This document shows positions 17,344 to 20,983 of a stretch of 22,892 nucleotides of DNA, one piece after another (the stretch's first letter is position 1; each line of letters begins with the position of its first letter). Made by a program: the position numbers and the translations under genes. The notes beneath the pieces were generated by a model. It was not told the origin of the DNA and did not search any database. It worked only from the letters and a program-made list of their open reading frames with translations. Source of the DNA: Actinomycetota bacterium (GTDB taxonomy: Bacteria; Actinomycetota; Nitriliruptoria; Nitriliruptorales; JAHWKO01). Location of the stretch: the NCBI GenBank assembly GCA_019347855.1, contig JAHWKO010000029.1:1-22892 (forward strand), written 5' to 3'.

Positions 17344-17374
17344 TTGACCTTCCAGCTGCTGGAGCCTTTACCGT
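17344..17374 (+). promoter_or_regulatory. MerR/CueR-type metal-responsive promoter and operator
   Basis: TTGACC (17344-17349) and TACCGT (17369-17374) are separated by 19 bp instead of 17, the over-long spacer characteristic of promoters twisted open by MerR-family activators. The spacer carries a dyad, TCCAGCTGCTGGA (17351-17363), within ACCTTCCAG...CTGGAGCC. This resembles the CueR/HmrR operators of copper-efflux genes, which begin TTGACCTTCC. Transcription would start near 17381, just ahead of the GAGGAGC ribosome site and the GTG at 17401. The regulator itself is not in the window. Confidence 0.7.
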
Positions 17375-17400
17375 CGAGGCCCCGCAGAGGAGCTCCAGCT

Positions 17401-18480
17401 GTGGAACGTCGGACCTACGCCATCGAGTCCATCCACTGCGAGGGTTGTGAGCGGGCGATCCGCCAGGTCGTGGGGGACCTCGACGGGGTCTCCGAGGTCA
17501 AGCCGGATGCGCGCTCGAACACGACCGAGGTCGTCTTCGATCCGAACGTGGTCAGCGAGAACGATGTCATCTCCGCCTTCGGCGATGCCGGCTTCCCCGT
17601 GATGACCGCGGACGCGCACGACGACGGACGTGGGAGCCGAGGTGCCGGGCGGTACGCCCTGCTGGCCGTGGGTGTGCTGGCCGTCGCGCTCGCCGGGTAC
17701 CTGGGGTACGTCCTGTACCCGCGGTTCGACCTACCGGCGGTCGAGGGTGTCGCGGTCCTGGGTCTGGCAGCGGCGGCAGGGGTCGCGTCGTTCTTCTCGC
17801 CGTGCTCGTTCCCGCTTCTGCTGGCGATCCTCGGCCGGCAGGCGGCGGCACGGTCAGACGGGGAGGGCACGTCCGCCGCGCCTCTGGTGTTCGGTGGGGC
17901 GTTGGCGGCCGGCGCCGGGACGTTCCTCCTGATCGCCGGTCTGGTGATCGCCGCGGGCGGCGGGACGCTGTTCGCGCAGGTGACGTTCGCGAGCACGGCA
18001 GGGATCACCATCCGTGCCGTCGTCGGGGTGGTCCTCGTGCTGCTCGGGCTGGTCCAACTCGGGGTGCTGCCGTCGCCGTTCCATGCCGTCGAGGAGAGGG
18101 TCCGGCCGCTGCTGCGGCGGCAGGCGCAGCTGCGCAGGGAACGCCCGGTGGTGGGGTTCGCTGCGTTCGGGTTCGGCTACGTCCTCGCCGGCTTCGGGTG
18201 AACGGGACCGATCCTGGCCGGTCTGGCCAGCTACACCTTCACGGTCGGCGGGTTCTGGGTCGCGTTCGTGGCGTTCGTCGTCGCCGCGGTGACGATCGCG
18301 GCGTGCGTGTTCGCGGCCGCGTTCACGGTCGCCCGGGCCGAGCAGACGACGGTGGAGTCGATCGAAGCCCGCGCCCCGCAGGTCAAGCGCTGGACCGCCT
18401 GGGTCGTGATCACCGTCGGGTTGTGGTTCCTGGTGCTGGCCATCTTCGCCGACCGCTTCGCTGATGTCTTCCCGGTGTGA
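17401..18480 (+). CDS. HMA domain-CcdA/DsbD-type membrane protein, probable selenoprotein (UGA = Sec267)
   Basis: A 359-residue protein if the in-frame TGA at 18199-18201 is read through. Residues 1-68 are a heavy-metal-associated domain with the metal pair Cys13/Cys16 in IHCEGCE. A transmembrane helix follows (about 80-105), then a CcdA-type core. Its first catalytic motif is FFSPCSFPLLLAIL (Cys135, C-x-x-P). The second is AGFG-UGA-TGPILAGL, where the UGA falls exactly at the second catalytic cysteine before x-x-P. The frame then continues for 92 residues with two or three more helices and ends at TGA 18480. CcdA/DsbD proteins carry electrons across the membrane through this pair, so Sec would replace the outgoing or incoming thiol. 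The start is GTG at 17401 behind GAGGAGC. The promoter looks MerR-controlled. Alternative: a simple Cys-to-stop mutation, argued against by the hairpin after the UGA. Confidence 0.8.
18199..18230 (+). promoter_or_regulatory. Bacterial SECIS-like element: UGA plus adjacent hairpin
   Basis: Counting the T of the TGA as 1, bases 16-21 (CTGGCC, 18214-18219) pair perfectly with bases 27-32 (GGCCAG, 18225-18230) around the loop GGTCT (22-26). In the E. coli fdhF SECIS the SelB-contacting loop is also GGUCU and starts at the same position 22, with the key G23 and U24. A U at position 17, the second SelB contact, is also present here, although it can pair with A31. The hairpin lies wholly inside codons Leu-Ala-Gly-Leu-Ala of the CcdA core. 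Confidence 0.75.
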
Positions 18481-18532
18481 GGACGGTCTACCCTGGCCGA
18501 CAGCTCGCTCGCCGATCGCCATCCGAGGTTCC

Positions 18533-19390
18533 GTGCGCTCCCGCGTGTTCGTCGCTGCCGTCGTTCTCATGCTGGTTCCCGCCTGCTCGTCCGCGACAAC
18601 GGGGACCGGTGACTCCGCCGAGGGCAACCTCCCCGTCAGCGACCACGTGCACGCACTGCGGGCGGCCGACGACGGTGCGCTCTTACTCGGACTGCACGGT
18701 GCGCTTTGGCGGAGCCCGGACGGCGTCAACTGGCGAGAGTTGGGCCTGGAGGGGCAGGACGCGATGGCGCTGGGCGTCGCAGCCGAAGGTCAGCCGTTGC
18801 TCGTGGGCGGGCACGACGTGCTGGCCCGGTCGACCGACACGGGCGAGACCTTCGAGATGCTCAACCCGTCGGATCTGCCGTCGCTCGACATCCACGCGTT
18901 GGCTCAGGCTCCCGGCGAACCCCGGACCGTGTACGCCTACGTGGTGGGCCACGGCATCTACCGCAGCGGCGATGCGGGCGAGACCTGGGCGCCCGCAGCA
19001 CCCGTCGGCGAGCGGTTGCCGGGCGACCTCGTCGCGATGGCCGTCGACCCCAACGATCCGCAGATCGTGTTGGTCGGGAGTGGCGGGCACGGCGTCTTCC
19101 GATCGACGGACGGTGCGGCGAGCTTCACCCGGAGCACGGACTGGGGCACGCTCGGCTTGGCGTTCGGCGCCGACGGGACGGTGCTCGCTGCCACCTACCA
19201 GGGGGTAGACGTGTCGGAGGACGGGGGGAGGTCGTGGGACAACGTCGCGGGAACCGACGGGTTCGATGGACAGCCGCTCGCGGTCGCGCTCGGGCCGGAC
19301 GGGGCGTGGTGGGTGCTGACCGAGGAGCCGCGGGTGCTGTACCGCGGCTCTGACGAGGATGGCGGGTTCGAGGAGGTGGCACGTGCCTGA
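18533..19390 (+). CDS. BNR/sialidase-repeat lipoprotein
   Basis: A 285-residue secreted lipoprotein with a beta-propeller built from Asp-box repeats. The lipobox is LVPAC (Cys18) after the hydrophobic run VFVAAVVLML. Five repeats carry the S-x-D-x-G-x-x-[WF] signature: RSPDGVNWREL, RSTDTGETFEML, RSGDAGETWAP, RSTDGAASFTRS and SEDGGRSWDNV. Proteins of this kind are often labelled glycosyl hydrolase or photosystem-stability-like, but no catalytic residues of sialidases are evident, so a binding or scaffold role is more likely. I chose GTG at 18533 because it places the signal peptide correctly and GAGG lies four bases upstream. It begins 52 bp after the selenoprotein stop, and its own stop overlaps the next start, so it belongs to the operon. 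Confidence 0.85.
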   Translation: MRSRVFVAAVVLMLVPACSSATTGTGDSAEGNLPVSDHVHALRAADDGALLLGLHGALWRSPDGVNWRELGLEGQDAMALGVAAEGQPLLVGGHDVLARSTDTGETFEMLNPSDLPSLDIHALAQAPGEPRTVYAYVVGHGIYRSGDAGETWAPAAPVGERLPGDLVAMAVDPNDPQIVLVGSGGHGVFRSTDGAASFTRSTDWGTLGLAFGADGTVLAATYQGVDVSEDGGRSWDNVAGTDGFDGQPLAVALGPDGAWWVLTEEPRVLYRGSDEDGGFEEVARA

Positions 19391-20399
19391 CCGATCCCGC
19401 CTTCTGGCCGTCTTCTCGGTCCTGGGCGTGCTGGTTGCGTCCTGCGCGTCTGCGAACGGTGCGTCAGAGGCGAGCGTCGGTGCGACGACCGAGGACCGCG
19501 GGTTGGCGGTCGTCGTCGCGTCCTTCGACGTCGCGGTCGGCGATGACCAGCGGCTCCTCGTCGGGGTGTTCACCCCCGATCGCCAGATCGTCGGTGGTGG
19601 CGAGGTCCAGATGCGGTTCACACCGCCAGGTGGAGCGACGGGTACGGAGTCTGTCCGCGAGGTGACCGGACGGTTCCTACCCGTCCCCGGGAGCGGCACC
19701 CCGGCCGACCTGCAGACCCCCGTCGTCCTGGGGGAACCAGCATCGCACGAGCACGCCCCCGGTGAGGCGTCATCGCCCCACGACCACGGCGAACCGGACG
19801 CCGCCGGGGTCTACCAGACCCGGATCGACCTCGACCGTGCCGGGATCTGGCAGGTCACGGTGACCGCGACGCTCGACGGCACGACCCGCAGCGGAACCGC
19901 CGCCTTCCAGGTCTCCGACACCCACCAGGTACCGGCGGTCGGCGAACCGGCACCGGCGGTATCCACCCCGACGCTCGACAGCGATCTGCCGCCCGCGGCG
20001 ATCGACAGCCGAGCGGCGGCGGAAGGACGGGTACCCGACGAGATCCTGCACACCGTGGACCTGGCCGACGCCCTCGCGTCGGGACGTCCCGCTGTCCTGG
20101 TGTTCGCGACCCCGACCTACTGCGCTTCGAGGTTCTGCGGTCCGATCACCGACACCGTCGAGCAGCTCGCGCACCGCTACCGCGACCGAGCCGCGTTCGT
20201 GCACGTCGAGATCTGGCGCGACATCGACGACGGTCGGATGAACGACGCCGTGGAGCCGTGGATCGCGACCGACGACGGCGGCAGCGAACCGTGGGTGTTC
20301 CTCGTGGGAACCGACGGGACCATCACCGCACGCTGGGACAACGTGCTCGACGAGGCCGAGCTCGTCGCGCTCCTCGAAGCCCTGCCGCGGGCACCATGA
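19383..20399 (+). CDS. Lipoprotein with C-terminal thioredoxin-like domain (C-x4-C)
   Basis: A 338-residue lipoprotein. The lipobox LVASC (Cys21) follows the signal run LLAVFSVLGV. Residues 35-180 look like an immunoglobulin-type domain ending in GIWQVTVTATLDGTTRSGTAAFQV, interrupted by a histidine-rich loop (SHEHAPGEASSPHDHGE) that could bind metal. The C-terminal domain is thioredoxin-like: GRPAVLVFATPTYCASRFCGPITDTVEQLAHRY with Cys247 and Cys252, then FVHVEIW and EPWVFLVGTDGTITARWDN. The C-x4-C spacing differs from CxxC thioredoxins and from the CxxxC of Sco copper chaperones. The GTG start at 19383 overlaps the previous stop by eight bases, and its stop overlaps the cytochrome start. It is a natural extracytoplasmic partner for the upstream CcdA-type protein. 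Confidence 0.88.
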   Translation: MPDRSRLLAVFSVLGVLVASCASANGASEASVGATTEDRGLAVVVASFDVAVGDDQRLLVGVFTPDRQIVGGGEVQMRFTPPGGATGTESVREVTGRFLPVPGSGTPADLQTPVVLGEPASHEHAPGEASSPHDHGEPDAAGVYQTRIDLDRAGIWQVTVTATLDGTTRSGTAAFQVSDTHQVPAVGEPAPAVSTPTLDSDLPPAAIDSRAAAEGRVPDEILHTVDLADALASGRPAVLVFATPTYCASRFCGPITDTVEQLAHRYRDRAAFVHVEIWRDIDDGRMNDAVEPWIATDDGGSEPWVFLVGTDGTITARWDNVLDEAELVALLEALPRAP

Positions 20400-20983
20400 C
20401 CGCGCGACCCGCACTCCTGCTCATCCTCATGGCCGCTTCGGTCATCACGGTCATGGCACCGGCTTCCGCCACCCAGGACGCCGGTGTGGATGCCGGCCGG
20501 CAGATCTTCGAGTCGAACTGCGCCATGTGCCACGGCTCCGACGCCAGCGGGATGATGGGCATGCACCCCTCCCTGCGCGGCGCCGTGGAGCGCCTCACGC
20601 GAGAAGGCGTGGAGGTGACCGTGCGGAACGGTCGGGACACCAACCCGCCGATGCCACCGTTCGAAGGACATCTCACCGACCGTGAGATCGAGCAGGTCAT
20701 CGCCTACATCGACTCGCTCCCACCGGGTCCGCGTAACTTCGGTCCCGACACCGACGGAGGCGGGATGATGGACGGCATGATGGGCGGGTGGATGTGGATC
20801 TTGCCCGCCCTGGTCCTGATCGTGATCGCCCTGGCTGTGCTCGCGATCGTCCGCCGCTCGAACGACGGACGGACCACGAACACGGATGATCGCTCTCCCC
20901 GCGAGGTGCTGGACCAGCGGTACGCCGCCGGGGAGATCGACCGTGACGAGTACCTCCAGCGTCGGGACGACCTAGAGGGGTGA
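20396..20983 (+). CDS. Membrane-anchored c-type cytochrome with SHOCT tail
   Basis: A 195-residue monoheme cytochrome c. A signal peptide (LLLILMAASVITVMAPASA) leads to the heme motif CAMCH (Cys42, Cys45, His46) and the class I segment PPMPPFEGHLTDREIEQVIAYIDSLP, whose methionine is the likely second heme ligand. A methionine- and glycine-rich linker (GGGMMDGMMGGWMW), able to bind copper, precedes one transmembrane helix (ILPALVLIVIALAVLAIV). The cytoplasmic tail is a SHOCT motif (SPREVLDQRYAAGEIDRDEYLQRRDDL), usual in actinobacterial membrane proteins. The ATG at 20396 overlaps the previous stop (ATGA). It is the last gene of the operon and may accept or deliver electrons in the same extracytoplasmic pathway. 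Confidence 0.92.
   Translation: MTARPALLLILMAASVITVMAPASATQDAGVDAGRQIFESNCAMCHGSDASGMMGMHPSLRGAVERLTREGVEVTVRNGRDTNPPMPPFEGHLTDREIEQVIAYIDSLPPGPRNFGPDTDGGGMMDGMMGGWMWILPALVLIVIALAVLAIVRRSNDGRTTNTDDRSPREVLDQRYAAGEIDRDEYLQRRDDLEG

Follow-up and report, generated by a model that had tools for sequence, protein, structure and literature searches.

Among the systems described so far, the one closest to the protein considered here is the CcdA/DsbD group (PF02683), represented by the solved structure 5vkv, which we take to be the CcdA of Thermus. The gene in question occupies positions 17401–18480 of contig JAHWKO010000029.1 of an Actinomycetota bacterium (assembly GCA_019347855.1); the whole stretch of 22,892 nucleotides that was analysed is called the window below, and all of the features named in it lie on the forward strand. 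On the sequence comparisons described here, this gene almost certainly encodes a selenoprotein with selenocysteine (Sec, U) at residue 267. The likeness to the CcdA/DsbD group lies in the two catalytic positions, SPCxxPL and C/U-x-G-P-I-L, whereas the new family differs in having Sec for the second cysteine, an extra N-terminal helix, often an HMA domain, and a metal-type promoter.

Other described proteins resemble the window protein in part. The MerT/CopZ fusion-like heavy metal transport selenoprotein (NF045683) and the MerT-type selenoproteins are similar by name, being membrane selenoproteins with an HMA part and a metal context, but only the HMA part of the window protein matches that model (20.9 bits against a cut-off of 375) and its membrane part is CcdA-like. 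The UxxU metal-binding (seleno)protein NF041115 is also matched by the HMA-type part (37.3 bits, cut-off 95); its motif has Sec in place of the cysteines that bind metal, whereas the window protein keeps Cys there and carries Sec in the membrane. TsoB (NF045694), a named DsbD-like selenoprotein known to us by its description (rhodanese/DsbD fusion-like, UxxxxU, two Sec), gave no significant match (4.1 bits, E 9.5, cut-off 805), the window protein having one Sec and another motif. DsbD-like membrane proteins of the metal response are represented by ScsB and by copper-linked archaeal members of the DsbD family; in an ammonia-oxidizing archaeon, DsbD-family and sialidase-like genes are found in clusters raised under copper limitation (PMC7785015). 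In the accessible part of that source these proteins are not described as selenoproteins, nor is an HMA fusion described.

No NCBIfam model (June 2026) covers the window protein over its full length, and the cut-offs of TsoB, MerT_CopZ_Se and UxxU were not reached. Table 1 of a catalogue from 2026, which covers 119 families of selenoproteins in prokaryotes, contains in its accessible part no CcdA or HMA-CcdA family, the nearest entry being TsoB (PMC13188914), and full-text literature searches, with a coverage that left out Haft and Gwadz 2023 and Haft and Tolstoy 2025, found no CcdA-type selenoprotein. The gene thus appears to represent a new selenoprotein family whose core is CcdA-like, with Sec at a membrane-embedded, probably catalytic site. 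It would also tie the use of selenium to a probably metal-inducible gene control in lineages left unnamed by the 2026 review, the accessible main text of which contains neither 'Actinobact-' nor 'Actinomycet-' (PMC13188914). Such a family makes it possible to test directly what need a thiol relay in the membrane would have for selenium.

The frame 17401–18480 comprises 359 residues and a terminal TGA of its own (18478–18480), and its sole internal TGA is that at 18199–18201, so that the continuous frame with a single interruption, from which the original prediction started, was borne out. The start codon is likely GTG 17401; a ribosome-binding-site-like AGAGGAG (17386–17392) was read in the sequence 8 nt upstream. 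The product consists of an HMA domain, an additional transmembrane helix designated TM0 and a six-helix CcdA-like core. The HMA domain (residues 5–65, 17413–17595) was recognized by PF00403 with E 4.3e-10 (40.3 bits, cut-off 24.8), contains the CxxC of the metal-binding motif as HCEGC (C13, C16), and matched the folds of CopZ and MerP. The two membrane motifs are SPC135SFP, where Cys135 (TGC, 17803–17805) is the predicted first CcdA-type catalytic cysteine, and GFG-U-TGPILAGL, where the TGA at 18199–18201, read as Sec267, stands at the predicted second catalytic position (U-T-G-P). The full frame is taken to be read with Sec267 because the UGA falls at the second CcdA-type cysteine position and is accompanied by a conserved hairpin of the selenocysteine insertion sequence (SECIS).

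A protein search found 423 homologue clusters, and the following figures refer to the 120 listed of these 423. Exactly one residue before the TGA site, 114 of the 120 come to an end, as would be expected from the truncating annotation that had been foreseen; the remaining six show Trp at the site (P0022, P0047 and P0086), Cys (P0114 and P0120) or an earlier departure (P0108). P0022 also runs on past its own end, with Trp after FPV. Judged from the protein records alone, the three Trp residues are probably TGA codons translated with table 4 by the annotation pipeline.

At the DNA level, 80 loci (L001–L080) were obtained when genome contigs were scanned. The Sec codon is TGA in 29 of the loci L001–L032 and TGC in two (L023, L028), L022 being a fragment short of the site, while a Cys codon is present in 47 of the 48 loci L033–L080, with L077 short of the site. 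Profile searches of two evenly drawn phylum samples showed that the rates are low, any match at the E-values used being obtained in 13 of 396 and 7 of 400 genomes. These samples added eight TGA genes in six genomes (L104, L105, L106, L107, L114, L115, L122 and L123; L117 is the same place as L115 and was counted once) and five Cys genes (L110, L121 and L124, plus the distant L112 and L113); L111 and L116 are short of the site and were unread there. The sample begun at G006 mostly repeats genomes of the 396-genome sample, and the 'Acidobacteria' title of G006 was not borne out by the taxonomy of that sample.

The total at the site is 38 TGA genes, the window included, and 54 Cys genes, with no other codon among those read; relatives therefore hold Cys or Sec at position 267, the check that the original prediction had proposed. 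Many of the truncated relatives come from environmental bacteria; by genome labels, the family is distributed over Actinomycetota, classes of Chloroflexota and Armatimonadota. Directly 3' of the TGA the sequence TGPILAGL follows, the protein being conserved across the TGA in the 38 genes, in agreement with the claim that the membrane domain continues beyond this codon; at codons +1 to +5 the pairwise difference is 0.000 for the second position and 0.58 for the third. The frame of L115 is broken, and L105 contains one extra stop upstream of the core. The comparison of these sequences shows that selection acts on the gene as a single frame, with either Cys or Sec at position 267 and with its predicted SECIS element.

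The bacterial SECIS apical hairpin is located at 18214–18230 and has the sequence CUGGCC-GGUCU-GGCCAG, the stem being formed by 18214–18219 and 18225–18230 and the loop by 18220–18224. The loop begins 18 nt past the UGA; counting the U of UGA as 1, G23 and U24 are in the loop and U17 is in the stem, which is the register given in the original prediction. The GGUCU loop and its distance from the UGA presumably agree with the SECIS of Escherichia coli fdhF, with the difference that only a short apical hairpin is conserved in the CcdA-like family. With its 5-nt loop, 6 bp, distance of 18 nt and energy of -11.6 kcal/mol, the hairpin lies within all of the limits for bacterial SECIS (bSECIS) elements given in the accessible text of PMC13188914 (section 5), namely a 3–9 nt loop with G in the first two positions, a 4–16 bp stem, 16–37 nt from the UGA and a minimum free energy <= -7.5.

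The conservation of this element was followed in 30 genes (the window and 29 TGA loci) over 71 conserved degenerate amino-acid columns. Codons +6 to +8 (18217–18225, GCC GGT CTG) are the sole fully invariant columns of the 71: GCC was found in 30/30 genes, GGT in 29/29 of the Gly codons (L021 has AGT, Ser, at +7) and CTG in 30/30. Pairwise codon identity over the 71 columns has a median of 0.37, and GGT accounts for 17% of the Gly codons elsewhere in the TGA genes. The third-position pairwise difference, which is 0.580 at +1 to +5 and 0.584 at +9 to +15, falls to 0.000 at +6 to +8, and GCC GGT CTG is present in all eight later TGA genes too. This sequence-exact SECIS core could be used as a search query. 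The stem 16–21/27–32 is paired in 91.4% of the cells, compared with at most 47.1% for slid partners. Two-sided changes occur only at pair 18–30, where they are compensatory (G-C 19, G-U 3, U-A 3, C-G 2, U-G 1, one mismatch); the two inner pairs are invariant and the outermost pair, 16–32, is formed in 15/29. At least four uninterrupted pairs beside the loop were found in 29 of the 30 genes, against a mean of 6.1 and a maximum of 14 in 2000 codon-preserving draws, and the GGUCU loop likewise in 29 of 30, against an expectation of 4.2 and a maximum of 11 in 2000 such draws. Since the sequences are related, the draws are not independent; a better control is provided by how far the neighbouring codons have diverged. 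As judged from the aligned sequences, the conservation of the hairpin in the relatives is beyond chance. Among the Cys genes (48 readable by the pattern, 53 tried) GCC GGT CTG occurs only in L110 (G093, TGC); this close bacterial Cys relative may represent a recent change from Sec to Cys with a remnant of the SECIS.

The machinery for Sec was searched in the genomes of 48 of the 80 loci, comprising 29 with a TGA gene, 18 with a Cys gene, all labelled archaea, and G022. Over the curated cut-offs, SelB was found in 25/29, SelD in 28/29 and SelA in 26/29 of the TGA-gene genomes, each of the three in 0/18 of the archaeal Cys-gene genomes, and SelA and SelD in G022; in the phylum samples, SelB was present in all six new TGA-gene genomes. 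The model RF01852 reached at least 55 bits in 21/29 TGA-gene genomes. Because it also matches all 14 control genomes, being over the cut-off in five, an ARAGORN check was added, in which tRNA-SeC with anticodon TCA was identified in 20/20 stretches tested, one each from 20 TGA-gene genomes. The selD gene itself contains one in-frame TGA in 25 of the 28 TGA-gene genomes having SelD. Together with the TGA/Cys pattern and the conserved SECIS, the presence of sel genes in most carriers supports the selenoprotein interpretation of the original prediction. In G030, a selA match over the cut-off (contig C24:10358–11668) contains one internal TGA, which is an error or something else.

Several observations reduce the value of parts of this evidence. 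The folding energy of the hairpin is that of shuffled sequences (z -0.14), and in the GC-rich window a bSECIS-like hairpin follows 29 of the 71 in-frame TGAs in long open frames, the Sec site included. Since so many TGAs pass the scan, little can be concluded in GC-rich DNA from SECIS calls that use structure only, and the energy of the hairpin was rejected as proof of a SECIS. The earlier argument from the hairpin and its RNA fold therefore held as regards position and bSECIS limits, whereas the hairpin by itself is within chance; the selenoprotein reading is carried by the comparison, and the hairpin alone would not have sufficed. As discriminating proof, the Sec machinery is also weakened. 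Domain and trait are confounded in the first sample because all 18 Cys-gene genomes are archaea, and the machinery is frequent in non-carriers, with SelB in 19/30 and SelD in 20/30 Actinomycetota that lack the gene (the first 30 of the draw, not a random choice). SelB was also found in five bacterial Cys-gene genomes (G093, G209, G315, G679 and G709). The genome nearest to the window host among 66 of its class, G001, the DNA of which is 78% identical along part of the kup region, has the TGA gene and SelA, SelB and SelD over the cut-off, and no tRNA-Sec over the cut-off.

The assignment of the membrane part is based on the relatives, on a weak profile alignment and on the predicted fold. PF02683 gave no match in the window protein at E 0.01. 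The profile alignment to 5vkv, over 228 profile positions, is weak, with an E-value of 0.21 at the level of the sequence and of 13 when the single stretch is scored. In this alignment, C135 and residue 267 are in register with both cysteines. PF02683 is matched by 3/23 members of alignment A2, in which C135 is invariant and position 267 is Cys or Sec. Foldseek ranked 5vkv at the top, with probability 1.00 and E 0.015. The AlphaFold2 model, built from 87 sequences with Cys in place of Sec, had a mean predicted local distance difference test score (pLDDT) of 85.6 and a predicted template modelling score (pTM) of 0.68, and was composed of HMA at 1–67, a helix at 81–109 and then the core helices; the membrane part alone, with the same replacement, gave pLDDT 86.9 and pTM 0.77. 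From the topology, the N-terminal HMA domain would be cytosolic. The designation as an HMA-CcdA protein thus stood for the HMA part, PF00403 being over its cut-off, and not for PF02683, which the window protein does not reach, while the placing of the TGA at the second CcdA catalytic cysteine is supported by the weak 5vkv alignment and by Cys in the relatives.

Upstream of the gene there is a predicted MerR-type promoter (17344–17374), with a -35 element TTGACC (17344–17349), a 19-bp spacer containing the dyad TTCCAGCTGCTGGAGCCTT, and a -10 element TACCGT (17369–17374); the 18–20 bp spacer with dyad that defines promoters of MerR-regulated genes is therefore present in the window. The layout TTGAC-x, 18–20 bp spacer and TANNNT, scanned 330–1000 nt 5' of the Sec codon, was found in 27/37 TGA genes versus 72/4000 background windows of 670 nt; the 37 include L014, L021 and L025, which have fewer than 250 bases upstream, and omit L122. 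An earlier scan with a stricter -10 element caught few and was superseded by this one. No MerR regulator gene was found inside the window. In 18/29 TGA loci, many loci being cut by contig ends, MerR-family genes are situated within about 2.3 kb. The seven distinct neighbouring MerR proteins that were scanned matched MerR models, and the NCBIfam cut-off was reached by 0/6 scanned. A central and a C-terminal Cys are kept in 19/19 aligned neighbouring regulators (21 matches), the central one being, we assume, the mark of divalent-metal sensors. Since the family stands behind MerR-type promoters, it is probably metal-responsive, and with the promoter statistics of the relatives and the predicted sites as a basis we hold a metal-responsive regulation to be very likely. 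This metal-regulatory context was absent from the original prediction.

The locus L031 (1384–4439) has the gene order CcdA(Sec), MerA (TIGR02053, 562.5 bits, cut-off 454.45) and MerR, an arrangement resembling a mer operon in which a membrane selenoprotein takes a place where one might look for MerT. Mercury as the single metal is not settled, MerA being over the cut-off solely at L031; the flavin adenine dinucleotide (FAD) reductases of L004, L009 and L028 are below it.

As a whole, the locus is very probably best explained by a membrane protein with Sec267 that is expressed from a MerR-type promoter, its proposed activity being a relay in soft-metal stress. In the membrane core, Cys135 and Sec267 would be joined in a switchable selenenylsulfide pair with redox activity like that of the pair in CcdA. 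Under soft-metal stress this pair could carry reducing equivalents to the other side of the membrane, in the manner of CcdA, the end recipients being extracytoplasmic thiol sites. Two points favour the selenol-thiol relay: the agreement with CcdA at both catalytic positions, and the presence of a thioredoxin-like protein and a cytochrome c in the window operon. By its resemblance to CcdA, the electron relay has an even chance of being the main activity.

The alternative that survives best, which we consider possible and clearly not the likelier choice, is that Cys135 and Sec267 are a pair of soft-metal ligands, so that Hg(II), Cd(II) or Cu(I) would travel between the cell exterior and the HMA domain in the cytosol in a MerT/MerP-like manner. 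The linkage to HMA speaks for metal passage: the domain is fused in a single open frame in the window, L001, L104, L106 and L114, and lies close upstream, unfused, in L002 and L105 (with a stop between) and in L016 and L115 (in another frame). In addition, 98 of the 114 truncated clusters have CxxC in the first 60 residues, and both the cysteines retained by all 19 neighbouring MerR proteins and the gene order of L031 would suit metal handling. Sec is moreover found in MerT-like and SO_0444 transporters, most of them linked to metal resistance according to the accessible text of PMC13188914, and the archaeal DsbD-family gene raised under copper limitation was proposed, in the part of PMC7785015 at hand, to encode a Cu+ binder. 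On the other side, both catalytic cysteines of CcdA have an aligned counterpart in the core, an HMA match is absent from the surroundings of many family members, and a MerA over the cut-off is confined to one locus. A variant of this idea, rather doubtful, is that the CcdA-like fold serves as a selenol-based translocator in which Sec267 and Cys135, opposite each other within the membrane, would deliver Hg(II) or an ion like it to the fused cytosolic HMA domain and then to MerA-like enzymes under MerR control.

That the TGA is an ordinary stop, giving a truncated product with the remainder a pseudogene or separately re-initiated, is very improbable: database gene calls do end at this TGA, but the protein is conserved across it in the 38 genes, with no second-position difference at +1 to +5, and the relatives without TGA at the site carry Cys at the DNA level. 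A reassignment of UGA to Trp (code 4 or 25), to which the Trp of the three listed clusters could point, or a sequencing error has a negligible probability, since 21/30 read-through frames terminate at TGA, the DNA of the relatives shows Cys and not Trp, selD has its own in-frame TGA in most carriers, and read errors are hard to reconcile with the recurrence of this TGA in dozens of separate assemblies.

The selenoprotein gene with Sec267 is followed in the window by three co-directional genes. The first (18464–19390, start taken from the list of open reading frames) encodes a beta-propeller-like protein related to the F510_1955 family and below its cut-off (NF045728, 96.9 bits, cut-off 175; PF15902, 27 bits, cut-off 33). 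The second (19359–20399) encodes a putative exported protein, which had no family match over the cut-off and the C-terminal part of which appears thioredoxin-like by inspection of the sequence (CASRFC). The third (20306–20983, start chosen by us) encodes a c-type cytochrome (CAMCH), the match to PF13442 (E 6.5e-16) being that of the longer frame 20258–20983. A conserved operon was rejected, as these three genes recur little in the other loci searched: the beta-propeller gene was found in L017 and L106 and the cytochrome gene in L106 and L026, and the thioredoxin-like gene had no match there.

Relatives of the thioredoxin-like DF-family (seleno)protein occur near the gene in L003, L024, L025, L030 and L032. 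Those at L003:5666–6004, L024:2337–2705, L025:1223–1573 and L032:5883–6239 contain Cys in the motif, and the copy in L030 is shortened; of the two scanned against the NCBIfam cut-off, that of L024 passes and that of L003 fails. This neighbour is a possible redox partner of the CcdA-like selenoprotein. A DUF7482-like gene was observed 3' of the selenoprotein gene at L011:1808–2365, L013:6790–7353 and L017:4232–4744. Finally, a long downstream frame that has no Pfam match recurs at L024:2506–3516 and also in L006, L025, L027 and L032, and may be a real gene read in the wrong frame.
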